Source: an uncultured Oscillospiraceae bacterium
GTDB taxonomy: Bacteria; Bacillota; Clostridia; Oscillospirales; Oscillospiraceae
Direction: 5' to 3'
Length of the DNA: 37,108 nucleotides
Assembly (NCBI GenBank): GCA_947629795.1
Contig: CANRFC010000029.1
Location: forward strand, 1-37,108
The notes beneath the pieces were generated by a model, which saw nothing but the letters and a program-made list of their open reading frames with translations, did no database searches and was not told the DNA's origin. Each line of letters starts with the position of its first letter. Positions within the stretch are counted from its first letter, which is position 1. This document shows positions 2-17,151 of the stretch, in pieces. The translations under genes and the position numbers were made by a program.

Positions 2-1573
2 CCTGTCTATCCGCTGTCCGCAAAACCATTGATTTTATTAGCTTTTTGCCGCTATCGCTATCACACCTCATTATTCACAAGACCGGCTTTCATGGAAATT
101 ATGGAGCTGGCGGAACAGGGCCTTGTCGCCAATCTGGTGGTCAAGGATCATTCCAGGTTAGGCCGAAACCGTCTTGTAGTGGGTCAGCTTCTGGAAGAAG
201 ATTTTGTCCGTATGAATGTTCGGTACATCGCCATCATGGATAACATCGACACCGCCAACGGCGTCAGCGACATTGTGCCCATGCAGGACCTTTTCAATGA
301 GTGGCACGCCAAGAATACCAGTGATAAGGTTCGGAAGGTCATGCAGAGCCGTGGCAACGCCGGGATACCCCTCACCACCAATCCGCCCTTTGGGTACAAG
401 AAGCCCCCGGAGGATAAGAACAAGTGGGTGGTAGATGAGCCGGCGGCAGAAGTTGTGCGGCAGATTTTCAAGATGAGCGTGTCCGGCCTCGGCCCTACCC
501 AGATCGCCAAGAAACTGCGCTCTGACGGCGTGATGACGCCAAGCGAGTATCTGCACAGTATCGGCGTGAACTGTCCCACCAAGCCCCCAACGTTCCCTCA
601 CAACTGGTGCTCCGCTACCGTAGCCGCTATTTTGGACAGGCAGGAGTACACCGGGGATACCGTGAACTTTCGTTCCTTCAGCCAGTCCTTTAAGCAGAAG
701 AAACGGCTGGACAAGCCCCAGGACGAGTGGAAGGTGTTTCCCAACACCCACCCCGCCATCATTGACCGGGAGACTTTCGAACTGGTCTGCCAACTGCGTC
801 AGCACCGCCGCAGGCCCACCAAGAGCGGCATTGTGAGTATGTTCTCTGGGCTGCTCTACTGTGCCGACTGCGGTGAAAAACTGTATTACAGTTGCACCAA
901 CAACTACAAGCGGGGACAAGCCTACTTCTTTTGTTCCAGCTACCGCAAAAATTCCAGCGTATGCTCCGCCCACTATATCCGGGAGCGCATCGTGGAGCAG
1001 TTGGTGTTGGAAAGTCTGCAACGGCTGATGTGGTACATCCAGGTCTATGAAAAGAGGTTTGCCCAAGAGCAAATGGAGCGGTTCGGCCTGCAAGAGAAGA
1101 AGGCGCTGGCTGAAAAGAGGCGGGAGTTAGACCGAGCCAAACATCGGGTGGTAGAAATTGACCAGCTTATCCAGAAAAGCTACGAGGACATGAGCAAAGG
1201 GCTACTCTCCGAAGAACGCTTTGCCACGCTGACGGTATCCTTGGAAAACGAGCAGAGGCAGTTAAAGGCCGCGATCCCGGAGCTGGAATCCAGCCTGGAG
1301 TTCACAACGGACAAGACAATCGACCTGCAACGGTTCATTGAGCGGGCCAGACAGTTCACCCGGCTGACGAAGCTGACGCCTGATATCGTCCACGAGTTCA
1401 TTGAAAAGATCGTGGTTTCCCGGCCTGACAAGCTAAAGGGCAAGCGCCATCAGCAGATGGACATCTACTACAACACCATTGGCCTGTGGTCCATCCCGGA
1501 GCCAGATGTGATGGAACAGCAGTATCTCCACCACTACCGGCGCATGACAGCCAAAGAGCAAAAGACGGCGTAG
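2..1573 (+). CDS. Large serine recombinase, 5'-truncated
   Basis: Site-specific recombinase of the large serine (resolvase/invertase) family, which integrates and excises mobile elements. The reading frame is open to the window edge. Recognisable family sequence starts only near nt 75 (RPAFMEIMEL) and continues through the KDHSRLGRN block of the catalytic domain, a Recombinase domain (FGYKKPP onward), a zinc ribbon (CADCGEK ... CSSYRKNSSVC) and a C-terminal coiled coil around nt 1080-1300. The N-terminal ~60 residues with the catalytic serine are missing. The first ~75 nt do not encode the expected YVDDGxSGT-like segment, so the gene is either cut by the contig end with unrelated sequence joined on, or is a real 5'-truncated pseudogene. 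Such genes usually lie at one end of their element, so the element probably extends left and ends just after this gene. The family call is firm; integrity is doubtful. Confidence 0.85.
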   Translation, partial: PVYPLSAKPLILLAFCRYRYHTSLFTRPAFMEIMELAEQGLVANLVVKDHSRLGRNRLVVGQLLEEDFVRMNVRYIAIMDNIDTANGVSDIVPMQDLFNEWHAKNTSDKVRKVMQSRGNAGIPLTTNPPFGYKKPPEDKNKWVVDEPAAEVVRQIFKMSVSGLGPTQIAKKLRSDGVMTPSEYLHSIGVNCPTKPPTFPHNWCSATVAAILDRQEYTGDTVNFRSFSQSFKQKKRLDKPQDEWKVFPNTHPAIIDRETFELVCQLRQHRRRPTKSGIVSMFSGLLYCADCGEKLYYSCTNNYKRGQAYFFCSSYRKNSSVCSAHYIRERIVEQLVLESLQRLMWYIQVYEKRFAQEQMERFGLQEKKALAEKRRELDRAKHRVVEIDQLIQKSYEDMSKGLLSEERFATLTVSLENEQRQLKAAIPELESSLEFTTDKTIDLQRFIERARQFTRLTKLTPDIVHEFIEKIVVSRPDKLKGKRHQQMDIYYNTIGLWSIPEPDVMEQQYLHHYRRMTAKEQKTA

Positions 1574-3194: not shown

Positions 3195-3234
3195 CTGCCC
3201 GCCGAAGGCCTATCTCTTCGGCGGGCAGTCTTTG
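3195..3234 (-). terminator. Terminator at the end of the surface-protein operon
   Basis: A perfect 13-bp inverted repeat CTGCCCGCCGAAG / CTTCGGCGGGCAG (3195-3207 and 3216-3228) with an 8-nt loop. It lies 35 bp beyond the sortase stop codon. On the minus strand it is followed by GTTTGCTTTG and on the plus strand by TCTTTG, so it may act both ways. A second imperfect GCCGGC-flanked hairpin lies around 3150-3180; nothing else is recognised between 3107 and 3263. Confidence 0.65.
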
Positions 3235-3263: not shown

Positions 3264-4106
3264 TTAAGTCCCGCCCAACTCCCGGAGAACGCCCAGCAGC
3301 ACATACCGGGCATTGGAAAACTCATAGGAACAGGTGGACAGGGTGACGGTCCGCTCCCCCTCCACAGGCTGCGGGCCGCCCCGGAAATCAGAATCCTCCC
3401 AGGCCTTGTCCATGATGGGCCTGCCGTCCTCCGCCGTCTCCCAGGCGGTGGAGTAGAGCAGGGAGTCGGTGGAGGTGACGAACCCCGCGAACAGCTCCGC
3501 CTTGTAATTGGCCGCGGGCGTCAGAAGATACCAGACCGGGTGGGCTTCGTAGAACTCCTGCTGGGCGTAGTGGGGCAGGATGCCGAACATGGTCCCGTTC
3601 TTCATGTTGTGTCCGTAGAGGATCAGGTTCTCGTCGGAGAGGTCGGCGGCGTTGCGGCAGTCCGCGAAAATGCTCCCGGCGATGTGGTGGCTGCCGTCGC
3701 TGCGCCTGCGGAGGTAATAATCGTTGTCCTCACTTTGCAGGACCGGGTAGTTCACCTCCGTGTCCGGGCAGTAGACCCAGGCGATGATATCCGGGTTTTC
3801 CTCCCGGAGCAGGGCAAAATCCACCGTGATGGGCGGCAGCTCCGGCGCGGCAGACGGCTCCTCCCGGGAGGGAGAGGCGGGAGCCGGAGCGGCCTCCGAC
3901 ACCGTGACCGCCTTGTCCCGCAGTTCGCCCATGAAGCGCGCCTCCTGCCGGTTCTCCAGCAGATAGGCGGCAAGGCGCCAGACCGAGAGACCCAGCAGCA
4001 GGGCGAACAAAACGAGCAGGACCCGGCAGGGCCAACCCGCGCCGGGGCTGACCCGCTTTCCGGCATATCCAAACCGTGACCGGACCCGTTTTCCTTCAGT
4101 TCTCAT
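3264..4106 (-). CDS. srtB: Class B sortase
   Basis: Membrane-bound cysteine transpeptidase of 280 residues that cleaves a sorting signal in a surface protein and joins it to an amine in the wall or in another subunit. A cytoplasmic N-terminus and one membrane segment (about 29-49) precede a disordered stalk rich in Ala, Pro and Ser (70-92) and the catalytic barrel. The triad is His166 (LYGHNM), Cys259 (TLSTCSYEF) and Arg267 (ARYVLLG). The [13 protein letters not shown] and TMFGIL stretches are typical of class B. The ATG at 4106 overlaps the stop of the upstream CnaB-type gene (ATGA), so translation is probably coupled. It is the last gene of the minus-strand surface operon, and its likely substrate is the adjacent VPKTDD-bearing protein. 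Confidence 0.93.
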
Positions 4107-6589
4107 CTCTTGACCCGCTTTCCGTGGTAACTGCGGGAACTGGCATACCAGACGCAGTTGGCGATCCCCAGAACGCTCACGACACACAGCGCCAGCCAGA
4201 GCCCGGGCCTGCGCCCGTCATCGGTCTTGGGCACGTCGGGGCCGGGCGGCGGCGAAGGCGTGGGGACGTGCTCCAGAGTGGGAGACGGCGTGGGCGATGG
4301 CTCCGGAGCCGGCGTGGGCGTCTCACTGGGCGTTGGAACGGGCTCCTCGCTGGGCGGCGGCGTTTCGGCAGGGGAGGGGGTCGGCGTCCTGGTGGGCGTG
4401 GGAGCAGGCGTCGGGTCGGGACGGTGGGGCGGAGGTGTCGGCTCCGCCGGCGGGATGTAGTGGTTGATGATATCCCAGCTTTCCGGAGGGTACTCCGGGC
4501 TGAAATGCGCCACCGGCTCCTCCTCCACCCGGTAGACGATCTCGTTCCCGTTGGCGTCATATTTGGGGACATGGAAGGAATACGTCCAGTCCCCGGCGGC
4601 GTCCGGCCTCACCGGGACCCGGTCGATCAGCGTGGTCCCCTGGTAGAGCCTGACCCAGATGAACGAGGGCAGGGGGACGTCGGTGTGCCCGCCCAAGTCC
4701 CAGGTCTTTACCCCCTTGATGAGCGCCAGATGCCAGGCGTTGACCGCCTCCGCCGTAAGGTCCCCGCCCGTCACCGTTCCGGTCCCGTCGGACATGGTCA
4801 GGGTATAGCCGTCGGCGGAGTAGTCCCGCTCCGTGATGACGTAGGTCACCCCCTTGGGAAGGTCGGGGAAGACCGCCCGCCAGCCGTGCCGGAGGGCAAG
4901 GTCGCCGCTGCCGGTGACAGCGCCGGAGCCCTGGATGGCGCCGGCAGCGTCATAGATGGTGTAGCTGTGGCTGGCCGTGTCGGAGAAGGTGACGGTAAAG
5001 ACGAATTCCTTGTCCCCTTCGCCGCCGCCCTCCACCCTCTTGGTCAGAGTCAGCGTCCCCGTCTCCGGCTCCGGGGGGACGTTCCGGAACAGCAGCTCCG
5101 CGGTCACCCCGCCCCGGACCGTGCCGTCCGCGGACTGGAGGAGGGCGCGGCAGCCGTTCGTCCCTGTCTCGGTGACGGTGTAGCCCAGCCCCCGGGGCAG
5201 ATCGGGAAACGCCAGCCGCCAGCCGTGGCGCAGCTTCACCGTGCCGCCGCTGGGGAGCGTCCCGGAGGCCAGCAGGCCGCCCGCGGCGTCCGTGACGGTG
5301 TAGGGATAGGCCCCGCCGTCGGCAAAGGTGACGGTGAATTCGAATTCCAGCGCCTTCTGCTCCTCGGTGAGCTCGGTGCCGCCGGGATTTTCCAGGGCCT
5401 TTTCCACCACCAGCCCTCCCGGCTCGTCAGGCTCCTCGCCCCAGCGGTTTTCAAAGTCCGCCCGGACGGTAAAGCCCCCCGCCGACGTCCCGGAGAAGGC
5501 GGTGTGGAGGGGTCGGTACCCCGCCGGGACCGGCGTTTCGGTGACGGTATAGGTCACCCCGTCAGGGAGCCCGGCAAACACCGCCCGCTGGCCGTGTTTC
5601 AGGGTGACGGTCCCGCCGCTGGGAAGGGAAGTGCTCCCCAGATCGGTCCCGTCCCTGTCAAACAGGGTATAGGGATAGGTCCCGCCGTCCGAGAAAGTCA
5701 CCGTAAAGGGGAAGTCCTGGGCGAGCTGTTCCGCCGTGGGCTCGGAGCCGTCCTCGTTGACGATGACCTTGGTGACCACCAGGCTCCCTTTCCTGTAGAG
5801 GTTGCGGAACGCCGCCGTGGCCCCCTCCGGGGTGATGTGCCCCGTGTGGCCCCTGGAGCGGATGCCGTACCCCTCTTCCGGCGTCTCCGTGACGATATAC
5901 TGCACCCCGGCGGGGAGCCCGGCGAACACCGCCCGCTGGCCGTGCCTGAGCTTCAGGGTCCCGCCGCTGGGGAGGGAAGTGCTCCCCAGGTCGGTCCCGT
6001 CCACGTCGAACAGGGTATAGCTGTACGTCCCGCCGTCGGAGAAGGTCACCGTAAAGGTGAACTCCTGGGCAAGCTGCGCCGCCGTCAGGGGCGAGCCGTC
6101 CGGGTTCTCCACCTCCTTGGTGACGGTGAGGTCCCCCGTGAGCCGGGGGTCGTAGACCGTGACCACCACCGGCTCGCCGCGCTCCACATCCTCCCGGGTG
6201 ACGGTGAAGGGATACTTCGTGATGGGGGCGCCGGCGGCGTCAAGGTCGAAGCCGTGCCACGGGGCGGGGGCCCACTCCTCGAACCAGTAGTCCCCTGCCG
6301 GCAGCGCCAGGAGGATCTGCCCCAGAGCGTCGGTGGTGTAGGCCCCGCCCACCTGGGTGCCGTCCCCCCGGAAGAGGAGGAAGCACGCGCCGGGGAGGGG
6401 AGTGGTGGTGGGCGAGCCGTCCGGGGCCCGCTCCAGCTTGTCCAGCTCCACCGGGGCCTTGGGCGTGTTCCACGCCTCGTTCCGGGCCGACTGGCTCACG
6501 CTGCTCCAGCAGAACGTCCCCCCCAGGGACAGGGCCAGCGTCGTCAGCAGAACGCACAGCAGCAGCCCCTTCCGCCAGGGCAGCTTCAT
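4103..6589 (-). CDS. Wall-anchored repeat protein with CnaB/DUF7601-like domains and a SipW-type signal
   Basis: Secreted protein of 828 residues. Order: signal peptide whose [17 protein letters not shown] (23-39) matches the SipW-type signals of the two matrix proteins upstream; SpaA-like prealbumin-fold domain (about 45-150); four tandem DUF7601-like repeats (about 153-265, 268-382, 391-503, 511-617), each with [12 protein letters not shown]-like, LPSGGT-like and HGxRxxFxxLP motifs; a CnaB domain (620-712); a Pro/Thr/Ser stalk of TP repeats (713-785); sorting signal VPKTDD (786-791); a membrane helix (797-815) and basic tail. The sorting motif has Asp where LPXTG-type signals have Gly. RBS GGGGGGAAGG precedes the ATG at 6589. 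It is translationally coupled to the class B sortase, its presumed partner. Likely role: wall-linked stalk, adaptor or pilin-like subunit of the fibre system; adhesion is inferred. Confidence 0.88.
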
Positions 6590-6634
6590 TTCCTTCTCCC
6601 CCCTCTCTGTCGTGGCCCTCTCCCCCCGGACCGG

Positions 6635-6663
6635 CCCCGCCCCCGGTCAGCCCGGGGGCGGGG
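6635..6663 (-). other. Strong GC hairpin between operon genes
   Basis: A perfect 12-bp stem CCCCGCCCCCGG / CCGGGGGCGGGG with a 5-nt loop lies between copy A and the CnaB-type gene. On the minus strand no T-tract follows, so it is not a normal intrinsic terminator. It could protect or partly separate segments of the message. Confidence 0.5.
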
Positions 6664-6740
6664 GGTGTTCCTGTGGGTTTGGGAGAGACCGAAAAGATGA
6701 CCGCCGCGGCAGGCGCCCGTCCGGCCCGGGACCGGCCCAT

Positions 6741-9485
6741 TTAAGGATCCATATTGTACCAAAAAGCGGGGCGGAGACCGCGAGTACTGCCGACGTTAGT
6801 ATCTTGAGGTATCCCACCGTCGTCAGAAACACAGGCCACTCTGGCTGTCTTGCCGCAGGGCGACCGTAACCACCATAGGTACGGGGTTCCCCCATCATAA
6901 ACATAGGCCAGTCGGCTGGAAGCATTCGTAAAGTACGGTATCTTGGCACCGTTGTAAGTGTATTCCCAAAGCTGAGGCGACGTATCGTTCGATGCGTTAG
7001 ACGTGCCGAACATGTCCGCCTCAGACAGCAGGAAGACCTTGTCATTGGTGGCCTGCCTGTTTGCGATTGTAGCATCACTACCGAGACCCCGGGTATAGAG
7101 CTCCACCTCCAGGGCCTTGGCCGCCACGGTGGGATTTGCGGTCAGGTAGGTCCCGTTGAGGTCGCTCCTGATTGTACTGTTCGCCCACTGGTGGTCGCTG
7201 CCAAATTGAAATTTGTATACACCACTATCATCAGTATATACATACTTGCGCAGCAGCAGGGCGGACTCATGGACGGCCGCGGTGGTCTCTCCGTCCGCCT
7301 TGCCGACCACATGCGCCCCCTTCACCAGCACGATATATTCCACGCCGTCCAGCTTCACCGTTTCCCCCACATTCACATCCGCCGGGGTGCGCACCTTCGC
7401 CCGGACGGTGAACGTGGCTTTGAGGCTGCTGTCGTCGCTGTTGATGGCGGTGATGGTGGCCGTGGCCCCGTCGGCCACGCCGTAGGGGATGCTCACAATG
7501 ACATCCACTCCGTTGGCGCCGGCGCTGACCGAGGCGACGCTTGGATCGGTGCTGAGCCAGGTCCAGCGGTTTGTGGGACGCGCTCCCGGCGGCGTGGAGG
7601 TCGCGGCCACGGTGAAGGTGGCCGAGGTCTCGGTGAAGATGTCCACAGGGGTGGTGGCCGGGACCGGATTCCCCCCGGCGTCCTGGATGAACACGGAGTA
7701 GGTCACAGGGGTGACGGGGATGGAGGCCGTGCCGCTCAGGTTGGGGTAGGTGGCAGTGTCGGTGGGCGTGGCCGTCACCCGGACGGTCCCGGTCTCGTTC
7801 CCGGCGATGGTGAGGGTGGCCTTGCTGGAGTCGGCAGGGTCGGCGGTGATGGCCGTGTCGGTGGCATAACTCGCGCCGTTGCTGGTGTCCAGGGCCCAGG
7901 TGAAGGTCTGGGGCAGGCCGGTCTGGAAGTCGTTGGTGCTGAGGACGGCGGTGAAGTTCTGGCTGCCGCCGGGCATCGCGCTGGCACCGCCGCCCTCCGG
8001 GGTGACCGTGACGATGTAGGCCCGGGCCTGCACCGGCAGGTAGATCGTGCCCTTGAGCCGGCTGTATGTGTTGGACTCGGCCACCACCTTGAGGGTCCCG
8101 GCCTCGGTGTTGGTCACCCGGAGCACAGGCGTGCCGCCGGAGGTGTCGATCCTGGTGTTCGCGTCGGTGTTGCCGCTCAGCCTCCAGGTGACGGACTGGT
8201 CGGGGCTGGCCATCCCGGCCACCGTCACCTCTGCGGACAGGTCGATGTTCATGCCCTGTACGGCGTAGTTCAGGTGCTTCACGTCTCCGCCCACCGTGAC
8301 GGTGGCGGCGGGCGTGACCGAGCCCTTCACGCTGGCGGTGTTCACGCCGATGCCGTCCAGCAGGTCCAGGGCGTCGCCCGAGGGATCATCGCCGTCGGTG
8401 TAGAAGCCGGTCTTGGGGTCGTCGGTCTGGCCCAGGTCGTCGGCGGTGATGAACTGTCCCACGGCGTTGATGCCGTAATACCACGCCTCAGAGGGCTTGT
8501 TCTTCAGCACGATCCGGTCCAGGAGCACGCCGGTGGCGTTGGTGATGAACGCATCCGTCTCGGTGGGGGTCCCCGGCTCGATGGGCTGAGACCAGTAGGC
8601 CCAGCCGTCCACGTCGTAGACCCAGCCCACAAAGACGGCCTTTTCCTCGTCGCTCATCTCCTTGTACTCGGCCATGGTGATGACCGAGGCGTTCAGGGTC
8701 TCCCTGGCCTTGTGTTCCTCGTCCGCCATGGTGTAGTTCGTGCCCGCCACGCCGGTGCCGCCCGCGCCGCCGTAGGGGCCGCACTCGTCGGTGGTGTCCG
8801 CGTCGGCGTCATAGGACGCGCCGTTCGGATAGGTGGTGGTGTCCGTGTCCCGGACGCGGTCGGCGGTGTCGCCCACCGCGTAAGGGTGGTAGTCGTCGTA
8901 GGGCGTGCCCGAGCCGGTGCCCGCCAGGGTGCCGTTGATGTCCGCCTTCAGGCTGTCCTTGTTCTTGTTGAAGGTGGGCATATAGATGGTCTTGCCGTCG
9001 GGGTTGTCCTCCGCCTGCCCGCCCATGGTCCAGGTCCAGTAGGAGTGGAAGGTCTTGCTGGGGTCCGCGAAGCCGCTCTCCGTTCCCTCGCCGATCAGGG
9101 CGGAGGAGTGGCCGGGGAGGTGGGTTGTCCAGGTGGTCACGTCGTCGATCTCGGCGCCGGGCACCAGGGACGCGGCGCGGTTGGCCGGGTTGGGGTTGCC
9201 GGGAGTGCCCTTGAGCCCGGCCCCCGTGCCGATCTCCATGTACTCGTCCAGCCGGACCCGGGCGTAGATGGGCTGGCTGCCGAAGTTCTCCACATAGATG
9301 TCCTTGGTGTCGGTCTCTCTGTAGCCGCTGAAGTCGTCGTGGAGCCGCCCGCCCGGATTGATGACCTCAGTCGCCTCGTTGAGGGCGGTCTGGCTGATGC
9401 TCTGCCAGGCGAAGGTGCCTGCCAGGGCGATGGCCGCCGCGGACAGAACGGCAAGGACCGAGGTTTTGACTTTCGTAGCGCTCAC
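6741..9485 (-). CDS. SipW-dependent (BsaA/TasA-like) surface protein with Ig-like and DUF6273-like domains, copy A
   Basis: Secreted protein of 914 residues. The signal peptide has the SipW-type AGTFAWQSISQTALNEA block (22-38). A conserved domain follows (about 45-395), beginning GGRLHDDFSGYRETDTKDIY, like the N-terminus of BsaA-family biofilm matrix proteins. Several Ig-like beta domains come next (about 400-695), each with a CTFTVxA-like or TATIPV-like end strand. The C-terminal DUF6273-like domain (about 700-914) has WANSTIRSDLNGTYL, NDKVFLLSEADMFG, WWLRSP and GLRPAFWYN. There is no sorting signal or C-terminal membrane helix. The start is GTG with GGAGAG 8 nt upstream. Its paralogue is copy B at 10411-13134; the two differ most near the C-terminus. 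The last ~500 bp are clearly poorer in GC than the rest. Probable role: major extracellular matrix or fibre subunit, with the C-terminal domain as a possible ligand-binding head (inference). Confidence 0.85.
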   Translation of the reverse strand: MSATKVKTSVLAVLSAAAIALAGTFAWQSISQTALNEATEVINPGGRLHDDFSGYRETDTKDIYVENFGSQPIYARVRLDEYMEIGTGAGLKGTPGNPNPANRAASLVPGAEIDDVTTWTTHLPGHSSALIGEGTESGFADPSKTFHSYWTWTMGGQAEDNPDGKTIYMPTFNKNKDSLKADINGTLAGTGSGTPYDDYHPYAVGDTADRVRDTDTTTYPNGASYDADADTTDECGPYGGAGGTGVAGTNYTMADEEHKARETLNASVITMAEYKEMSDEEKAVFVGWVYDVDGWAYWSQPIEPGTPTETDAFITNATGVLLDRIVLKNKPSEAWYYGINAVGQFITADDLGQTDDPKTGFYTDGDDPSGDALDLLDGIGVNTASVKGSVTPAATVTVGGDVKHLNYAVQGMNIDLSAEVTVAGMASPDQSVTWRLSGNTDANTRIDTSGGTPVLRVTNTEAGTLKVVAESNTYSRLKGTIYLPVQARAYIVTVTPEGGGASAMPGGSQNFTAVLSTNDFQTGLPQTFTWALDTSNGASYATDTAITADPADSSKATLTIAGNETGTVRVTATPTDTATYPNLSGTASIPVTPVTYSVFIQDAGGNPVPATTPVDIFTETSATFTVAATSTPPGARPTNRWTWLSTDPSVASVSAGANGVDVIVSIPYGVADGATATITAINSDDSSLKATFTVRAKVRTPADVNVGETVKLDGVEYIVLVKGAHVVGKADGETTAAVHESALLLRKYVYTDDSGVYKFQFGSDHQWANSTIRSDLNGTYLTANPTVAAKALEVELYTRGLGSDATIANRQATNDKVFLLSEADMFGTSNASNDTSPQLWEYTYNGAKIPYFTNASSRLAYVYDGGTPYLWWLRSPCGKTARVACVSDDGGIPQDTNVGSTRGLRPAFWYNMDP

Positions 9486-9533
9486 GCTTCGTTCTCTCCT
9501 TTATCTTTGAAATCGTATGCCTTGCGCGGGACT

Positions 9534-10343
9534 TTATTGTTTCAGCCGCCGCCCCTCATTCCGGGAAGTGATGGTATAGGCCAGGAACTTCCCCAGAGCG
9601 CCCCAGAGGACCAGCAGAAACAGCAGCAGCGGCCAGTTGTCGCTGACGCCCTTGGCCAGCAGGCCCAGGAGCAGACTGTGATAGACGACCTTGCCCACGA
9701 TGTTCTCATTTGCCACTGGCGTGTCCGGGGCGGGGTTGTTCACGCCCTGGGTCCGGATGATGGGCCTGCCGTCCGCCTGGAGGTGGATGTCCACGATTCG
9801 GTGGGTCACCGAGGTGGTGGGGTTCACCATGAAGGTGATGTCGTCCCCGACCTGCAGCTCCTCCGGCTCCACAGCCCTTGTGAGGATGAAGGAGCCCTTG
9901 GGGATGGCGTCCTGCATGGATTCCGACAGCACCAGCATCCCGGAGTAACCGGCGACGCGCATCGGCGCGCCGGCCTGGGCGGACCGGAACAGCACCGCGC
10001 CGGCCAGCAGGAGCGCGATGGCCAGGTAGAACCCGATGTTGCCCACGAGGTAAGCAATTCCGTGGGGCCCGGCCGGCAGCGCCCGCCCCCGCCTTCCGGG
10101 CCCGGACGCCTCTTCCTTCTCCGCCGCCGGGGGCGGGAGCCGGGCCTCGGACAGCTCCGGCGCGAACTCCAGCAGGATGGCGTCCACTTTGTGCTCGCTG
10201 CGTTCCTCCTCCAGCGCCTTCTCCACGTCCTCCAGCCTGAGCCGCAGGTCCGTATTCTCCCTCCGCAGCTCCCGCAGCCGCTGGACGCCGGCGGGCCGCA
10301 GCCCTGCTGTCTGTTCCTCCCGCTTCCCCTTCGTAAGGATCAC
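9534..10343 (-). CDS. sipW: SipW-like signal peptidase I with coiled-coil extension
   Basis: Membrane serine peptidase of 269 residues, S26B (ER/SipW type), which removes the special signal peptides of TasA/BsaA-type matrix proteins. An unusual N-terminal charged coiled coil (about 20-52, RLRELRRENTDLRLRLEDVE) and a Pro/Ala linker precede membrane helix 1 (98-120), the catalytic domain and a second helix (234-256). The nucleophile is Ser142 in LSESMQDAIPKG; the partner is His181 in VTHRIVDIH, where ordinary bacterial SPase I has lysine. RTQGVNNPAPD and the NIVGKVVY strand complete the fold. It is longer than Bacillus SipW (about 190 residues) because of the coiled coil. The GTG start at 10343 has only a weak AGAG upstream, so the exact start is uncertain. 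It sits between the two matrix genes; all three secreted proteins of the operon carry matching signals. Confidence 0.9.
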   Translation of the reverse strand: MILTKGKREEQTAGLRPAGVQRLRELRRENTDLRLRLEDVEKALEEERSEHKVDAILLEFAPELSEARLPPPAAEKEEASGPGRRGRALPAGPHGIAYLVGNIGFYLAIALLLAGAVLFRSAQAGAPMRVAGYSGMLVLSESMQDAIPKGSFILTRAVEPEELQVGDDITFMVNPTTSVTHRIVDIHLQADGRPIIRTQGVNNPAPDTPVANENIVGKVVYHSLLLGLLAKGVSDNWPLLLFLLVLWGALGKFLAYTITSRNEGRRLKQ

Positions 10344-10410
10344 CTCTGATCATGCGGGATTTTTGGGTCACCGAGCTTGGAAGTCCGCTGCCACCCCCGC
10401 CCCGCGCGGC

Positions 10411-13134
10411 TCAGGGGTCCAGGTTGTACCAAAAAGCAGGCCGGACGCCGCCCAAACCGGTAGGGCCGCTGCTCGCGACTGTGCCAGTTGGATTAACTTT
10501 AGAAATACCGACATTACTGTAGGCGGGTGACCGTAGCCACCATTCGGATCCAGTAGCGATAGAGGAAAAGTGCGGTATTTGGGTGTTGTTATAGGTGTAT
10601 TCCCAGAGCTGAGGTGATGTGTCTACGCCTCTGTTCGATGTTCCGAATACGTCTGCCTCGGAGAGCAGGAACACTTTGTCGTTGGTGGTCTGCTTGTTCG
10701 ATGCCGCATTGTCGTTAAATTCTCCGCGGGTATCGAGCGTGACCTCGATGGCCTTAGCCGCTACAGTGGGGTATGCAGTCAGATAAGTTCCATTAAGTGT
10801 TGTTCTGATTGCACTGGTATTCCACTTATTACTGCTGCTGTCAAAATTGGCTTGGCTTCCATACATATTTTTGCTCAACAAGAGGGCGGCCTTGTGGTTA
10901 GACGTGGTCGACTCCCCGTTCGCCTTGCCGTTCACGGTTGCGTCTTTTACCAGCACGATATATTCCACATTGTCCACCTTCACAGTCCCGCCGACAGCCA
11001 CATCCGCTGGGGTGGGCTCTTTTGCCCTAACAGTGAAAGATGCGGTGAGGGTAGAGTCATCGGTATTGGTGGCGTTGATGGTGGCCGTCTGTCCAACGGT
11101 GGCGGCGGCAGGGATGCTGACGGTGGCAGAGCTCCCGCTGCCGGAGACGGTTGCGACCGCCGTATTGTCGCTGGTCCAGGCCCAGTTGTTTGAGGGATGC
11201 GCTCCCGGCGGGGTGGAGGTCACAGCTGTGGTGAAGTTGGCCGAGTATCCGATGGCGGTATCCACAGTCGTGCCTGTCACTGTGTTCGCGGAGGAAGTGC
11301 CGTCCTTGATGTTCACGGTATAGGTCACGGTGGTCATCGGGATGGTGGCCGTGCCGCTCACGCCGGGATAGGTACTGGCGCTGGTGGGCGTGGCCTTCAC
11401 GGTGATGGGCCCGGCCTCGTTCCAGGCGGCGGTGAGGGTGGCCTTGCTGGGATCGGTGCCGTTGACGTTGACGGAAGTGCCGGATTGATAGGTCACGCCG
11501 GTGGTGTTGTCCAGGGTCCAGGTGAAGTCCTGGGGCAGGCCGGTCTGGAAGTCGTTGCTGCTGAGGACGGCGGTGAAGTCCTGGGTGCCGCTGGGAAGGA
11601 TGCCGGTGGCGCCGCCGTCCGCGGTGACGGTGACGGTATAGGTCACGGGCTGCACCGGCAGGGTGAGCGTCCCCTTGAGCCGGTTGTATGCGCCCGATTC
11701 GGCCACCACCTTGAGAGTCCCCCCCTCGCTGGGGCCTACCTTGAGGACGGGAGTGGCCCCGCTGGTGTCGATTTTGGTATTCGTGTCGGTGTTGCCGGTC
11801 AGCTTCCAGGTGACGCTCTGGTCGGTGGGGGTGGCGCTGGGCACAGTGACCGTTGCGGCCAGGTCGATGTCCATGCCCTGCACGGCGTAGTTCATGGGCT
11901 TGACGTCTGTGCCGACGGTGACGGAGGCCGAAACGGCAATGGAGCCCCTCACGCTGGAGGTGTTCACGCCGATGCCGTCCAGCAGGTCCAGGGCGTCGTC
12001 GGTGGGGGCCTTGCCGCCGGTGTAGAAGCCGGTCTGGGGGCTGTCGAGCTGGCCCAGGTCGTCGGCGGTGATGAACTGCCCCACGGCGTTGATGCTGTAA
12101 TACCAGCTCTCGGTGGGCTCGTTCTTCAGCACGATCCGGTCCAGGAGCACGCCGGTGGCGTTGGTCACGAATGCGTTGGTCGCGGTGGGGGTCCCCGGCG
12201 CGATGGGCTGGGACCAGTAGGCCCAGCCGTCCTTGTCGTAGACCCAGCCCACGAAGGCGGCCTTATCCGCGTCGCTCTTGGCCTTGTATTCGGCCATGGT
12301 GATGACCGAGGCGTTCATGGTCTTCTGGGCAGTGTGGGTCTCGCTCTTCATCTCGTAGTTCGTGCCCACCACGCCGGTGCCGCCCGCGCCGCCGTAGGGG
12401 CCGCACTCGTCGGTGGAGTCCGAGTCGGCGTCATAGGCCGCGCCGTCCGGATAGGTGGTGGTGTCGTTGTCCCGGACGCGGATGGCGGTGTCAGTACTTG
12501 TGTACTGCACGTAGTCGTCGTAAGGGATACCGGTGGCGACCACCTTGTCAAGGCCCGCCAGGGTGCCGTTGATGTCGGCGTACAGGCTGTCCTTGTTCTT
12601 GTTGAAGGTGGGCATGTAGACGGTCTTGCCGTCGGGGTTGTCGGCGGCCTGCCCGCCCATGGTCCAGGTCCAGTAGGTATGGAAGGTCTTGTTCGGGTCC
12701 ATAAAGCCGGTCTCCGTCCCCTTGCCGATATCGGCAGAGGTGGCGCCGGGGAGGTGGGTGGTCCAGGTGGTCACGTCGTCGATCGTGGCGCCGGGCACCA
12801 GGGACACGGCGTGATTGTTCGGGTTGGGGGTAATGGCGCCGCCGGCGCCGACGGTGCCTTCGAGCCCGGCGCCCTCGCCCAGCTCCATGTACTCATCCAG
12901 CCGGACCCGGGCGTAGATGGGCTGGCTGCCGAAGTTCTCCACGTAGATGTCCTTGGTGTCGGTCTCTCCGTAGCCGCTGAAGTCGTCGTGGAGCCGGCCG
13001 CCGGGATTGGCCGGCTTGGTCGCCTCATTCCGCGCCGTCTGGCTGATGCTCTGCCAGGCAAAAGTGCCTGTCAGGGCGATGGCCGCCGCGATGGCCGCGG
13101 CGATGACCGCGGTTTTTGTCTTTTGGGTCTCCAT
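10411..13134 (-). CDS. SipW-dependent (BsaA/TasA-like) surface protein with Ig-like and DUF6273-like domains, copy B
   Basis: Paralogue of the 6741-9485 protein, 907 residues. SipW-type signal TGTFAWQSISQTARNEA (22-38), conserved BsaA-like N-terminal domain (about 44-400), Ig-like domains (about 405-705) and a C-terminal DUF6273-like domain (about 708-907) with KVFLLSEADVFG, EWWLRSP and GVRPAFWYN. No sorting motif. The ATG at 13134 is preferred: GAGGAAGG lies 6 nt upstream. An upstream in-frame start at 13170 lacks a site. The upstream region shares a CAAGGCATA-centred leader element with copy A, as expected if the duplication included its 5' flank. By hand count, GC is 47% in 10741-10860 against 68% in 12001-12120 of the same gene. 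It is the first large gene of the operon and probably another matrix or fibre subunit. Confidence 0.85.
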   Translation of the reverse strand: METQKTKTAVIAAAIAAAIALTGTFAWQSISQTARNEATKPANPGGRLHDDFSGYGETDTKDIYVENFGSQPIYARVRLDEYMELGEGAGLEGTVGAGGAITPNPNNHAVSLVPGATIDDVTTWTTHLPGATSADIGKGTETGFMDPNKTFHTYWTWTMGGQAADNPDGKTVYMPTFNKNKDSLYADINGTLAGLDKVVATGIPYDDYVQYTSTDTAIRVRDNDTTTYPDGAAYDADSDSTDECGPYGGAGGTGVVGTNYEMKSETHTAQKTMNASVITMAEYKAKSDADKAAFVGWVYDKDGWAYWSQPIAPGTPTATNAFVTNATGVLLDRIVLKNEPTESWYYSINAVGQFITADDLGQLDSPQTGFYTGGKAPTDDALDLLDGIGVNTSSVRGSIAVSASVTVGTDVKPMNYAVQGMDIDLAATVTVPSATPTDQSVTWKLTGNTDTNTKIDTSGATPVLKVGPSEGGTLKVVAESGAYNRLKGTLTLPVQPVTYTVTVTADGGATGILPSGTQDFTAVLSSNDFQTGLPQDFTWTLDNTTGVTYQSGTSVNVNGTDPSKATLTAAWNEAGPITVKATPTSASTYPGVSGTATIPMTTVTYTVNIKDGTSSANTVTGTTVDTAIGYSANFTTAVTSTPPGAHPSNNWAWTSDNTAVATVSGSGSSATVSIPAAATVGQTATINATNTDDSTLTASFTVRAKEPTPADVAVGGTVKVDNVEYIVLVKDATVNGKANGESTTSNHKAALLLSKNMYGSQANFDSSSNKWNTSAIRTTLNGTYLTAYPTVAAKAIEVTLDTRGEFNDNAASNKQTTNDKVFLLSEADVFGTSNRGVDTSPQLWEYTYNNTQIPHFSSIATGSEWWLRSPAYSNVGISKVNPTGTVASSGPTGLGGVRPAFWYNLDP

Positions 13135-13391: not shown

Positions 13392-13640
13392 TCAGCCTTG
13401 GGAGAGCAGGTTGACCAACCGCTCCTTTGCGGCCTGAGCCGTCCGTTCCGGGGGAGCCTTCGTCAGATACGCCAAAGCGTCGTTCCACTCCCGCAGATCC
13501 TCCTCCCTTGCGGGGAAGCGCCCCACCCTTTGGGCAAGGTCTTTTCTCCGGGGACCGTCCAGCTCACGCAGGTCGGAGAGGTAAGTACAGCCCATCTGCA
13601 TATAGAGCAGGTCCAGGAGGGAAAGGTCTGTGACCGACAT
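13392..13640 (-). CDS. Small protein of unknown function, 82 residues
   Basis: A short, soluble-looking protein with no signal peptide or membrane segment: a hydrophobic N-terminal helix (LSLLDLLYMQMG) followed by charged, probably helical sequence. I do not recognise the family. It is accepted as real because the ATG has a well-placed GAGGTG 8 nt upstream, its reading frame is not a shadow of a neighbour, and it lies on the operon strand between an AT-rich candidate promoter region and copy B, 257 bp ahead of copy B. A regulatory or chaperone role for the surface operon would be a guess from position only. Confidence 0.6.
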   Translation of the reverse strand: MSVTDLSLLDLLYMQMGCTYLSDLRELDGPRRKDLAQRVGRFPAREEDLREWNDALAYLTKAPPERTAQAAKERLVNLLSQG

Positions 13641-13658
13641 GTTTTATTCACCTCACAA

Positions 13659-13674
13659 CAGAATCAATATTCTG
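13659..13674. promoter_or_regulatory. Short inverted repeat upstream of the 82-residue gene
   Basis: CAGAAT-CAAT-ATTCTG, a perfect 6-bp dyad, lies 19 bp upstream of the ATG. It could be an operator or a leader hairpin. A dyad this short can occur by chance. Confidence 0.3.
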
Positions 13675-13775
13675 TCTGCCCAAGTGCGAAGATGGACCGG
13701 CTGCCGCCGCCGGACCCAGGCCAAAAAGCGGAGTTTTTGACCATATCTTGCGTTTTTTGCGTAGACAAACCACAA

Positions 13776-13801
13776 GCCGAGAAAAAATTTCTTTTCTCGG
13801 C
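13776..13801. repeat. 26-bp palindrome between recombinase and surface operon
   Basis: GCCGAGAAAA-AATTTC-TTTTCTCGGC: perfect 10-bp arms around 6 bp. No T-tract follows on either strand, so it is not a classical terminator. Arms of about 10-11 bp around a 6-8 bp centre are the usual plan of tyrosine recombinase core sites, and the nearest gene upstream encodes such an enzyme. Alternatives are a regulator site or a leader hairpin. Confidence 0.55.
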
Positions 13802-13861
13802 CGGAGGAACATGCCCAAAATTGAAAAAACCACTTGAAATTTCAGCTATTGTGGTGTATTT

Positions 13862-13889
13862 TTAATATCAGGCACACTATGTATATGAA
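13862..13889 (-). promoter_or_regulatory. Possible promoter for the surface operon
   Basis: On the minus strand, TTCATA (13889-13884), a 16-bp spacer and TATTAA (13867-13862), in an AT-rich stretch (13641-13933) that contrasts with the GC-rich genes. If used, it gives a leader of about 215 nt that includes the 26-bp palindrome. Match to consensus is only moderate. Confidence 0.3.
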
Positions 13890-13933
13890 GTCTGTCGTGA
13901 TTTCACAGGGCGTAATATTGATTTTGTCCTGTT

Positions 13934-14776
13934 TCAGGTCACCAGCCGCAGGTGCTCAAGCTGCCTCCGGTGCTCCTCTCCGCTGGTAAGCAGGTAGATG
14001 CGGGTGGTCTCGATGGACGAGTGGCCCAGCACATCGGCCAGTCTGGCGATGTCCTTGCACGCCTTGTAAAACAGGGTGGCGAACAGATGACGCAGGTTGT
14101 GAGGAAAGACTTTGGAGGGTTCCACCCCCGCTTTTCCGCACAGGGCCTTCATCTCCGCCCAGATCTGCCGTCGGGAAAGGCTTTTGCCGCTTCGGGTGAG
14201 AAAGATCTCGCCCGAGGCGGTTTTTTGCTTCTTGGCGTACTTTTCCAGCTTCCGGCACAGCTTGCCGGGAATGAGGATGGTGCGGATCTTCCCCTTCAGA
14301 GCGATCTCCGCCCGCCCTGCCCTGGCAGCCTCCAGGGTGATATACTTCACCTCGCCCACCCGGATCCCTGTGGCGCAGATGGTCTCCATGAGGAGGGCCA
14401 GCCGGGTCCGGCCCTCCCGCTGGGCCTGGGCGATGAGGGCTTCGTAGTCCCGCCGGGTCAGCTCCCGTTCAGCGGGGCGGAACAGGCGGTGCTGGACCTT
14501 CAGGAACCTGGCCCGGCAGTCCTCCCAGCCCAGAAAGCGGAACAGGCTGTTGAGGGCGGCCAGGGCTGTGTTGACGGTGGTCGGGGCGTAGCGGAGCTCC
14601 AGCAAATGGCCTTTCCATTCCGCCACCGCGTCCCGGGTGACGGGTCTGCCCTCCAGCCATCGGGCGAAAGAACCTGCGTCACGCAGATACTTTTCCCTTG
14701 TGGCCGCGCTCTTTTCCTCCCGCCGCAGATAGGCGCCGTATGCCTGGAGCGTCTTCTGGGTGATTTGCTTGTCCAT
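13934..14776 (-). CDS. Tyrosine recombinase (XerC/D-like integrase)
   Basis: Site-specific DNA recombinase of 280 residues. An N-terminal SAM-like core-binding domain (about 1-95) is followed by the catalytic domain (about 105-275). All active-site residues are present: Arg139 (ATGIRVGE), Lys163, His226 and Arg229 (HNLRHLFA), His252 (LGHSSIETT) and nucleophile Tyr261 (RIYLL). The ATG at 14776 is chosen because GGGAGG lies upstream (about 12 nt, somewhat long); longer starts have no site. It is alone: no excisionase, relaxase or phage genes are nearby, and the neighbours are a two-component system and the surface operon on the same strand. Chromosomal Xer is possible, but a role as a local inversion or integration enzyme is equally open. 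Confidence 0.85.
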   Translation of the reverse strand: MDKQITQKTLQAYGAYLRREEKSAATREKYLRDAGSFARWLEGRPVTRDAVAEWKGHLLELRYAPTTVNTALAALNSLFRFLGWEDCRARFLKVQHRLFRPAERELTRRDYEALIAQAQREGRTRLALLMETICATGIRVGEVKYITLEAARAGRAEIALKGKIRTILIPGKLCRKLEKYAKKQKTASGEIFLTRSGKSLSRRQIWAEMKALCGKAGVEPSKVFPHNLRHLFATLFYKACKDIARLADVLGHSSIETTRIYLLTSGEEHRRQLEHLRLVT

Positions 14777-15028
14777 AAAAAAACAGAGCCTCCCTTTTTT
14801 GATGGATGGCTCTATTGTATCCATATTTGGCGTATGGTGAGAAAATTCTTTTTCAGGAGCAGGGGACAGGGATGCCCCGCTCCGGCTCCCCGCCCCCGGC
14901 ACAGCGCACCCCGCGGCCCGCCCGTTCCGGCGCCGTGCAGGCGCCCTCGAAGGCAATGCTCCGGCCTGGGAACAGCCAGCCGCACCCGGGTCCTCCTGGG
15001 GCGGCTGCCGGTCGATCCGTGTTCCGTT

Positions 15029-16300
15029 TCACAGCGCGATCTTCAGGTGGAACCAGCCGTCCCTGGTCTCGTAGACACAGCAGGCGTCGTGCTTTTCGCA
15101 GAAGGCGGCGATGCTGCGGGTGCCGATGCCGTGGCCGGGCGTCTGGGCCAGGGGCAGCCCGTGCTCGTCAAAGCGGAGCGGCCCCCGATAGGGGTTGGCG
15201 ATCTCAAACATGAGGGAGGGGTGGCTGATGCAGGTGCACACCAGCTCCCGCTGTCCCTCCGGGAGGGAAGCGCAGGCGTGGATGGCGTTTTCCAGGGCAT
15301 TGGCGAACACGGTGGAGAGCTCCGCGGCGTCCACAGGCAGCTCCTCCGGGAGGGAGAGCCTGGCCCTGACGCGGATCTTCCGGGCCTCGGCCTGGGCGAA
15401 GTAGGCGGAAAAGACCGCGTCCAGCAGGGGATTTTCGCACCACTTTTCCGGCCTTGTATACTCGACCTCCCCCTGAAGGGTGTGGATATAGGCCAGGGTG
15501 GACTCCATCTCGCCGCGCCGGAGCATATCCTCCACGGTGAGGAGCTTATGCCGCAGGTCGTGGCGTTCGATGCGGACGGACTCCTCGGCGGCCCGGGCGG
15601 CGCCGATCCGGCTCTCCAGACCGGAGACCTGGGCAGAGAGCAGATCCTGCCGGTTCCGGGCCTCATAGTAGAGCATCTGGCGGTGGAGGGAGCCCAGGAT
15701 GGCGAGATAGGTGATGGGCATAAGGAGGAGCATCAGCAGGGCCCGCACCAGCTCCTGCCTGTCCTCAAAGGGCACGTCCACGGGGAGAGAGGTGGTCAGC
15801 AGGAGCAGATAGAACAGGGCGGCGATGACGGTGATGGTCCACCACCCGCCGGGAAGACTGTCCTGGAGCTCCAGATAGGGCCGGCGGAGCTTTTTCCACA
15901 GCAGGAGCCCGAACAGGGGCAGCAGGATCAGCCGGGAGAGGAAGAGCACCACATAGGTCCCGCCGCACAGCCGGTCCAGCAGGTTGGTCACCTGCATCAG
16001 CCAGATGCACACGGTGTCGCTGAGGCAGAAGGTGAAGAAGAACCGCCCGTCCCGGTATTTGGAGAGCAGATAAAACAGCACCAGGGAGGGGAGGGTGCAG
16101 GTAAAGAGGGTCACCGGCATCAGATAGGGCTCCCCCAGAAGGGCGAACAGAGTCAGCCCGATGGGCAGCAGCACCGCCGCGATGGCAAAAATGGTGAGCC
16201 AGGTCCGCCGGGGCGGATACTTAGAGCGGAAGAGCAGGGCGAAGACCACCGCCGAGAAGAACAGGGAGAGAAACGCCGAAATATCCCGCAGAAGCGTCAT
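15029..16300 (-). CDS. GHKL-domain sensor histidine kinase
   Basis: Membrane histidine kinase of 423 residues of the AgrC-like type. About six membrane segments in residues 8-205 form the sensor. A dimerisation coiled coil follows, with the phospho-acceptor box RHDLRHKL (His247), and then a GHKL ATPase domain with N-box NALENAI (334-340) and G-box GHGIGTRSI (389-397). The ATG overlaps the stop of the response regulator gene (ATGA), so the pair is translated together, and GGAGGGG sits upstream. Its signal is unknown; there is no AgrD-type peptide or AgrB protease gene nearby. The downstream neighbours on the same strand are the recombinase and the surface operon. Confidence 0.93.
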   Translation of the reverse strand: MTLLRDISAFLSLFFSAVVFALLFRSKYPPRRTWLTIFAIAAVLLPIGLTLFALLGEPYLMPVTLFTCTLPSLVLFYLLSKYRDGRFFFTFCLSDTVCIWLMQVTNLLDRLCGGTYVVLFLSRLILLPLFGLLLWKKLRRPYLELQDSLPGGWWTITVIAALFYLLLLTTSLPVDVPFEDRQELVRALLMLLLMPITYLAILGSLHRQMLYYEARNRQDLLSAQVSGLESRIGAARAAEESVRIERHDLRHKLLTVEDMLRRGEMESTLAYIHTLQGEVEYTRPEKWCENPLLDAVFSAYFAQAEARKIRVRARLSLPEELPVDAAELSTVFANALENAIHACASLPEGQRELVCTCISHPSLMFEIANPYRGPLRFDEHGLPLAQTPGHGIGTRSIAAFCEKHDACCVYETRDGWFHLKIAL

Positions 16301-17037
16301 AGCTCCCCTCCTCCCAGCCAGTAGTCCATCCAGGCGCGCTTCAGTTCAACAAAGGCCGACCGGGACACCGGCACCCAAGTGCCGGAATCCAGCAGGACGC
16401 CGCCCTTTTCCACGCTCCTCACATGATGGAGCCCCAGAACAAAGCTGGCCCCGCAGGGGGCAAACCGTCCGTCCGCGAGCAGTCCCGCCAGCTCCTCCCG
16501 GAAAGAGCCCCGGATGGTGCGGCTGTCCACAGCCTCCCCGCCGGTGAGGTAATACCGCATGGACCGGTCCACCCGCTCCACGTACAGAATGTCGCTGAGG
16601 GGCACCGAGCGCAGACCGGCGGGGGTGTTGACGATGGTGGCCTGGCTCCTGCGCTTTTGCAGGACTTTTACCGCCCGCTCCAGCACCGGGAAGAGCTGCT
16701 CCTCCCTTACCGGCTTCAGAAGATAGAAAAAGGCCTGGGTGAGGTAGCTGTCCACAGCGTAGTCGGGGGAGGAGGTGAGGTAGATGATCTCGCCGTCCCG
16801 CCCCAGCCGGCGGATGGCCTTGCCCGTCTCGATGCCGTTGAGCCCCGGCATAAGCACATCAAGAAGGTAGAGGTCGAAGTCCGCTCCCTGCTCCAGGGCG
16901 CTCACCAGCTCCTCTCCGCCGGAAAAGGAGGTCAGGCCGGCGGTGACCTCCGGCCTCTGGGCAAAAAACGCCTTCAAAAGCTCTGCCGCCCGGGCCAGCT
17001 CGGCGGCGTCATCATCGCAGACCGCGACCTTGAGCAT
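16297..17037 (-). CDS. LytTR-family response regulator
   Basis: Cytoplasmic transcription factor of 246 residues. The receiver domain (1-120) has the acidic pocket CDDD (7-10), phospho-acceptor Asp60 (LLDVLMPGLNG), Thr/Ser at 88-90 and Lys108. A LytTR DNA-binding domain follows (about 133-236), with YVERVDRSMRYYL and the ASFVLGLHHV segment. Such regulators usually bind paired ~9-bp direct repeats about two helical turns apart. The start at 17037 has AGGAGATGGAG upstream; a longer frame from 17151 would read through the promoter. It is the first gene of a two-gene unit with the kinase. Targets may include the surface operon downstream, but I found no convincing paired sites there. Confidence 0.93.
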   Translation of the reverse strand: MLKVAVCDDDAAELARAAELLKAFFAQRPEVTAGLTSFSGGEELVSALEQGADFDLYLLDVLMPGLNGIETGKAIRRLGRDGEIIYLTSSPDYAVDSYLTQAFFYLLKPVREEQLFPVLERAVKVLQKRRSQATIVNTPAGLRSVPLSDILYVERVDRSMRYYLTGGEAVDSRTIRGSFREELAGLLADGRFAPCGASFVLGLHHVRSVEKGGVLLDSGTWVPVSRSAFVELKRAWMDYWLGGGEL

Positions 17038-17121
17038 CTCTCCATCTCCTCTGTTTCCGGCCTTGGGGTCCTGACGCAAAACGTCCTGCACAGGATCCGA
17101 GATCGCCTCTGTTCTGTCAAA

Positions 17122-17151
17122 ATGGTAGCATATGACCGCCCGCGCTGTCAA
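17122..17151 (-). promoter_or_regulatory. Promoter of the two-component operon
   Basis: On the minus strand, TTGACA (17151-17146), an 18-bp spacer and TACCAT (17127-17122) with an extended -10 TGC. A second TTGACA at 17120-17115 has no good -10 partner. The predicted start lies about 80 nt before the regulator ATG. Confidence 0.45.

Follow-up and report, generated by a model that had tools for sequence, protein, structure and literature searches.

Fibres of the TasA and BsaA type are described as bound to the cell weakly or through the assembly proteins TapA and CapP, at least in the available parts of the sources (PMC7395162, PMC13082335, PMC9674648, PMC10151520). The window considered here, that is, the whole of contig CANRFC010000029.1 (C29; 37,108 bases) of an uncultured Oscillospiraceae bacterium with a genome of 2.86 Mb in 83 contigs, carries a minus-strand gene run for a SipW-type signal peptidase, two large putative fibre subunits (BsaA1 and BsaA2), a pilin-like CnaB protein and a class B sortase (SrtB), adjoined by a recombinase and a putative invertible segment. 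Our reading is that this locus would produce a SipW fibre under invertible control, whose sortase-anchored starter would be the CnaB protein; for this model as a whole we estimate a probability of about 0.5.

In Clostridium perfringens, the putative sortase gene srtB flanks sipW-bsaABCRSD, and its deletion left the BsaA protein profile and the pellicle unchanged. This sipW operon is expressed bimodally, for which a two-component system is required, and loss of pilA2 leads to all cells being ON (PMC7395162, text seen in part). The locus described herein is similar in its SipW peptidase, fibre protein, further secreted proteins, two-component system and nearby srtB. However, BsaA of C. perfringens has about 23 kDa compared with about 900 residues here, and inversion is unmentioned in the text examined, unlike the putative switch of the window (PMC7395162). 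Thus, sipW with a neighbouring sortase gene has been described before. An earlier note on this DNA had presented the SipW and sortase machineries as combined here but usually seen apart: they do form one operon-like run, while the claim of rarity gives way to the C. perfringens case and to two further loci in which the SipW and SrtB genes adjoin (L095 and L079).

In Bacillus subtilis, the first residues of TapA copy those of TasA, while the protein has a complete fold of its own and acts at the filament start (PMC10151520, PMC9674648, as far as the text examined goes). The window shares the substrate-peptidase-substrate order of tapA-sipW-tasA, and its CnaB protein, like TapA, combines the mature N-terminus of the fibre subunit with a complete fold; unlike CnaB, TapA has no sortase tail mentioned in the text examined (PMC9674648, PMC10151520). 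Furthermore, the domains here are of the Cna_B type and the BsaA N-domain has no detectable TasA fold match. The TasA-CalY-CapP system of Bacillus cereus offers another parallel, as a heteropolymer of two related subunits with a wall-bound assembly protein is also what we propose here; it is described, in the part of the source seen, as sortase-independent, unlike our sortase-anchored model (PMC13082335).

As for the switch, clostridial invertons of group 139, tied to group 35 tyrosine-type recombinases, invert in culture, and in one Intestinimonas case mucin carriers made a difference (PMC11892184, text seen in part). Like the window, they adjoin a tyrosine recombinase, and in two cases the short inverted repeats are separated by about 200-230 nt. 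The likeness is by description, not by sequence, and neither SipW nor sortase was met in the main text as seen (PMC11892184). No publication uniting a SipW fibre with an inversion switch was found, while papers naming both "phase variation" and "SipW" exist. The likely control by DNA inversion is the stronger new result of this analysis.

The CnaB protein and its gene run

In the order of minus-strand transcription, the XerA-type recombinase gene is followed by a 270-nt segment, orf82 (13392..13640), bsaA1 (10411..13134), sipW (9534..10343), bsaA2 (6741..9485), cnaB (4103..6589) and srtB (3264..4106). The last five had been singled out by the earlier note as a surface-fibre system and are all present; the SipW-type signal of CnaB, orf82 and the recombinase with its inverted sites (13655-14824) are features beyond it.

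The CnaB protein (828 residues) bears two signals. At its N-terminus, a SipW-type signal is followed by a mature start, or arm, resembling those of both BsaA proteins. Its C-terminus runs from VPKTDD through a hydrophobic stretch to KRVKR, in agreement with the sortase-substrate pattern. Pfam assigns DUF7601, SpaA and Cna_B domains to the protein. When a BsaA alignment was run against 84,980 species genomes, 30 loci were returned. A CnaB relative is present in 14 of them (phmmer E <= 1e-4); the remaining 16 include many that are truncated by contig ends and uninformative. The N-terminal motif occurs in 13 of the 14 outside relatives, or 14/15 including the window (the fifteenth frame, L111, is without an N-terminus), against a background of 1/756 other mechanically called open reading frames (ORFs). 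The sorting-tail rule likewise holds for 13/14 (14/15 with the window), compared with 7/756 other ORFs; the failing protein, L104, has LPQMGD with a longer tail.

The sortase gene does not recur in this way. While sipW is found in 13/14 outside CnaB loci (and bsaA in 14/14 by construction, the loci having been found with bsaA), a sortase lies in the flanking DNA examined at one of them (L095), where three loci (L087, L089, L094) have less than 1.5 kb of downstream sequence and the profile used recovered 60/62 seed loci. The five-gene co-occurrence expected of relatives by the earlier note is not borne out, and the sortase as a conserved cassette member is rejected on this count. Since each of the 12 searchable genomes among the 14 encodes at least one sortase, anchoring by a distant sortase is possible. 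The recurring unit is sipW-bsaA-cnaB, in which CnaB carries both signals, a design present in Clostridia, Erysipelotrichaceae, Coriobacteriia and Lactococcus, and the bridge between the two machineries is the CnaB protein, not the sortase gene. The wall-tethered surface structure suggested before is still the best reading, with the link moved accordingly to CnaB.

In the arm, W, Q and N are invariant in 14/14 aligned CnaB sequences, and invariant or nearly so in BsaA; the spacing is W+5/W+9 in ten CnaB proteins and W+4/W+8 in four. The SipW-type signal and arm motif is found in 51/56 BsaA ORFs, 50 of these 51 having Q at W+5 and N at W+9, a comparison at the level of the motif only. An AlphaFold2 model of CnaB residues 28-265 reached a predicted local distance difference test (pLDDT) of 93.6, with the first 13 residues below 50 and the remainder mostly at 96-98. 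As modelled, the arm is unstructured and the pilin-type domains behind it are complete, so that CnaB could donate a strand yet not accept one. Comparison with the PDB listed Cna_B and pilin folds, TapA not being among the matches listed. We propose that CnaB is a wall-anchored starter or tether of the fibre, which it would contact through its arm.

It could also be argued that the shared arm is merely a SipW recognition signal, in which case CnaB would be a wall-anchored adhesin never touching the BsaA fibre. The motif does straddle the presumed cleavage site in BsaA and CnaB alike, but its conserved W, Q and N fall on the presumed mature side. In addition, the arms are closer to the BsaA of their own locus than permuted ones, the mean observed over 14 loci being reached by 7/5000 permutations with phylogeny not controlled; the best arm identity per locus ranges from 0.14 to 0.79. 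We consider this explanation rather unlikely.

Another reading builds on the likeness to sortase-dependent pili, with which the locus shares a CnaB domain fold, as in the major pilin of Streptococcus pyogenes, and a class B sortase. CnaB would then be a sortase-polymerised pilin, SrtB making a covalent CnaB pilus and BsaA a separate fibre or a decoration. Unlike these pili, however, the window has a SipW-type signal, and its main fibre candidates are without a sorting tail (0/56 BsaA ORFs). The annotated loci also have a single CnaB gene per cassette, placed behind the bsaA genes, and 13/14 outside loci show no sortase in the flanking DNA examined. Moreover, CnaB keeps a BsaA-type arm that would be needless for a sortase pilin. 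A CnaB pilus thus appears improbable, and the CnaB protein as anchored fibre starter is retained.

SipW, an endoplasmic reticulum-type signal peptidase, matches TIGR02228 with 78.2 bits (cut-off 51.85), as its earlier designation implied, and stays below the Bacillus equivalog NF046067 (56.5 bits vs 190); judged by these scores, it is related to Bacillus SipW but is not that equivalog. Ser142 and His181 are invariant in 10/10 aligned sequences, and we take them to be the catalytic serine and the histidine that replaces lysine. SrtB (280 residues) matches the class B sortase model TIGR03064 with 166.3 bits (cut-off 153.75) and aligns to solved SrtB across the His and TLSTC stretches.

BsaA1 (907 residues from an inner ATG) and BsaA2 (914 residues) have the size of about 910 residues given for them before. 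Among the modules claimed, DUF6273 is confirmed at the C-terminus of both (Pfam, E 1e-17 for bsaA1 and 1e-18 for bsaA2), while the Ig-like ones have no Pfam match at E <= 0.05. The two proteins are 79% identical in the N-domain and 54% in DUF6273. "BsaA" is a name of convenience, because no library model matched the N-terminal part; the proteins are set beside C. perfringens BsaA by description, not by sequence. An NCBIfam search at E <= 10 with the first 60 residues of bsaA1, bsaA2 and cnaB gave no match for any of them, and a PDB profile search with the BsaA alignment no credible one (best E 0.14). For bsaA2 residues 27-400, AlphaFold2 reached a pLDDT of 84.6; the structure search with the BsaA N-domain detected no TasA-like fold match and gave no listing.

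A diversity-generating retroelement encoded elsewhere in this genome was also considered as a source of hypermutation in the DUF6273 tips. DUF6273 proteins are phage retroelement targets (PMC10743442, seen in part), and two retroelement loci of prophage type are present in the genome, one of them having a DUF6273 target. However, neither template matched the window tails, and the two copies differ along their full length. With the tails unmatched by both loci, this candidate is rejected and has next to no likelihood. The retroelement loci themselves, L014 (on C2) and L013/L015 (on C24/C40), each have an avd-like gene, a reverse transcriptase and a repeat pair, with 88% identity over 101 nt in one and 89% over 139 nt in the second locus, that with the DUF6273 target.

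At the 3' end of the run, ATGA contains both the stop of cnaB and the likeliest start of srtB, the ATG at 4106; a longer GTG frame begins at 4187. A terminator-like hairpin found by pattern scan after srtB (3195..3228, minus) probably marks the end of the operon, and a tRNA-Ser gene lies on the plus strand just past srtB. The same scan gave, on the minus strand, one further site in the segment (see below) and two weak ones, at 10455-10437 inside the end of bsaA1 and at 4025-4013 inside the start of srtB; counting both strands, the whole region has 16 such sites, compared with 9.0 on average in shuffles. At 29-1573 (plus), near the contig end, a large serine recombinase (Recombinase, zinc ribbon, DUF4368) suggests a mobile element nearby.

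The putative invertible segment and its recombinase

The XerA-type tyrosine recombinase (13934..14824, minus; start uncertain, 14776-14824), proposed to be a DNA invertase, matches Pfam Phage_integrase at 8.4e-24; its best NCBIfam model is XerA, with 134.5 bits under a cut-off of 220. When up to 3 mismatches are allowed, the site of its close homologues, ACAAAATCAACATTTTG, occurs exactly twice in the window, in inverted orientation, against an expectation of 0.00 in 37 kb. These are the right, operon-side site (13658..13674, plus) and the left, recombinase-side site (13911..13927, minus), with 3 mismatches each and an identical 6-nt core, TCAATA. Counted from the recombinase stop, they lie at +6 and +262, compared with +0/+1 and +248 to +253 in close homologues. 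Between them, a promoter-like TTGAAA-17-TATTTT (13834..13862, plus; 9/12 consensus) is directed away from the operon, and a terminator-like hairpin (13775..13802, minus; segment-shuffle mean 0.3) faces the operon as assembled. Phase variation is probable for this locus, and so is an OFF state in the assembly; the part on orientation is suggestive only, as it draws on promoter-like matches.

Two observations weigh against this interpretation: the window repeat by itself is weak, being reached by 20/200 shuffles, and the promoter-like match is near shuffle level (1 found vs a mean of 0.5) and a match to consensus only. The switch might have decayed, with a degenerate arm at the left site and the operon locked OFF. 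In favor of decay, the left site reads ACAAAATCAATATTACG and departs from the homologues' sequence in its segment-side arm, and the window is among the 7/60 loci whose repeat is not above shuffles (see below). On the other side, the core is the same at both sites, the recombinase frame is open, and the repeats of L192, L209 and L218 are likewise short (12-15 nt), though perfect. We regard a decayed switch as unlikely and continue with a functional one.

Recombinase homologues were sought in 200 genomes of the family (49 matched at E <= 1e-60) and in 19 BsaA-bearing genomes (5 matched at E <= 1e-40). From 60 regions, mostly taken from the tops of the lists, 66 loci with 67 recombinase hits were scored, representing 66 of the 97 places listed. 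Six hits end within 100 nt past the stop; of the other 61, 60 are distinct, L091 and L233 being one locus. At 53 of these 60 loci an inverted repeat exceeded all 20 shuffles. The window, L150, a partial copy in L192, L198, L229, L237 and L248 did not exceed them; in L150 another gene lies close downstream of the recombinase, and L229 offers 232 nt. The six contigs that stop so early (L194, L215, L216, L225, L236, L249) are what would be expected if mixed orientations had broken the assembly.

Both orientations are known only for paralogous segments of three other genomes (G014, G061, G134). For 35 same-genome segment pairs, the better alignment is the inverted one in 11 and the same-orientation one in 16 (one a tie at null), while 8 show no similarity. 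The inverted pairs comprise 8/8 cross pairs in G014, where two of the six segments are identical, one each in G061 (132 inverted vs 22 forward) and G134 (134 vs 32), and a weak one in G047. The window segment has no similarity to its own-genome paralogues on C34 and C46. Among seven near homologues, it aligns weakly in the same orientation with L196 (26 vs null 18) and L203 (21 vs 18), weakly inverted with L191 (20 vs 17) and L199 (28 vs 18), and not above null with L190, L197 and L208.

The best promoter-like site of 54 segments points toward the operon in 11 and away from it in 26, with 5 ties and none found in 12; shuffle means for single matches are 0.4-0.5. Because that site points away from the operon, the assemblies of the window, C34, C46 and L084 look OFF, and the L091 segment has no promoter-like site. 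In G014, with 11 recombinase matches and six switches scored (the L220-L226 set), a perfect TTGACA-16-TATAAT is directed toward the genes in L220 and L221 and away from them in L223, L224 and L226; L220-L223 stand before type-IV-pilin-like genes.

The first gene after the segment, orf82, has homologues in the same place behind two other switches, L196 (E 7e-18) and L247 (E 3e-14), and no family match in Pfam or NCBIfam (NCBIfam E <= 10). Genes of its type are possibly regulatory leaders of phase-variable operons. A different family, with zinc-ribbon-like "WW.C..GH.W" stretches, comes first behind switches L190, L193, L199, L202, L210 and L217. Directly upstream of the window recombinase, on the same strand, lie genes for a response regulator (16297-17151) and a GHKL histidine kinase (15029-16300; together 15029-17151), which recall the two-component requirement of the C. 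perfringens sipW operon (PMC7395162, text seen in part).

Distribution and proposed mechanism

SipW or BsaA genes are the cargo of 5/55 recombinase loci read (the window, L011, L084, L091 and L230), which indicates that the switch is a general device that the SipW cassette joined. Other loci, judged by eye, carry genes for large secreted proteins, or polysaccharide, pilin-like or flagellar genes. In L091 (10034-24019), five consecutive BsaA-type genes and one sipW follow one switch.

The genome of the window has two more BsaA-sipW loci, on C34 and probably on C46 plus C65, two contigs with a 22-nt end overlap. Each has a recombinase with a strong inverted repeat; no cnaB is seen there because contigs C34 and C65 stop inside the next bsaA gene. 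Additional SipW-type peptidases are encoded on C6. In a sample of 120 family genomes, 64 have an SrtB match and 23 a SipW over its cut-off, the two lying within 15 kb of each other in this genome and in G015 only. In the latter (L079), SipW, two proteins with a SipW-type N-terminus, a QPPKTGD protein and SrtB are found together. As the two same-genus genomes in this sample (G012, G089) have no SipW over the cut-off and 0/3 same-genus genomes have the recombinase at E <= 1e-60, the locus looks accessory.

From these elements the following mechanism can be proposed. The recombinase, going by its family, would flip the 270-nt segment, after which, by simple arithmetic, the promoter would lie about 80 nt upstream of orf82, directed at this gene, and turn the six-gene operon ON. 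SipW would cleave the predicted signals of BsaA1, BsaA2 and CnaB, presumably after GTFA or GTFC, a position we assume by analogy with TasA. BsaA1 and BsaA2 may then build the fibre and display differing DUF6273 (C-type-lectin-like) tips. As in TapA, the CnaB arm could supply a strand to the first BsaA, with CnaB accepting none in return, and SrtB would join the CnaB tail to the wall, fixing the base of the fibre covalently. The fibre itself, its contact with the CnaB arm and the wall link are all inferred. More tentatively, and at somewhat less than an even chance, such a hybrid could be a general design, in which strand-donation SipW fibres are started by, and fixed to the wall through, a "sortase-anchored TapA", the loci of this genome varying the fibre displayed. 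As three SipW-BsaA loci each adjoin their own recombinase and inverted repeats, the cell could vary the fibre it displays.

The recurrence of a protein with both SipW and sortase signals makes a covalent fibre tether directly testable. A switch in the OFF state could explain why fibres are unseen in bulk cultures or in single assemblies. In a wider perspective, the switch places a SipW fibre among the phase-variable surface structures.

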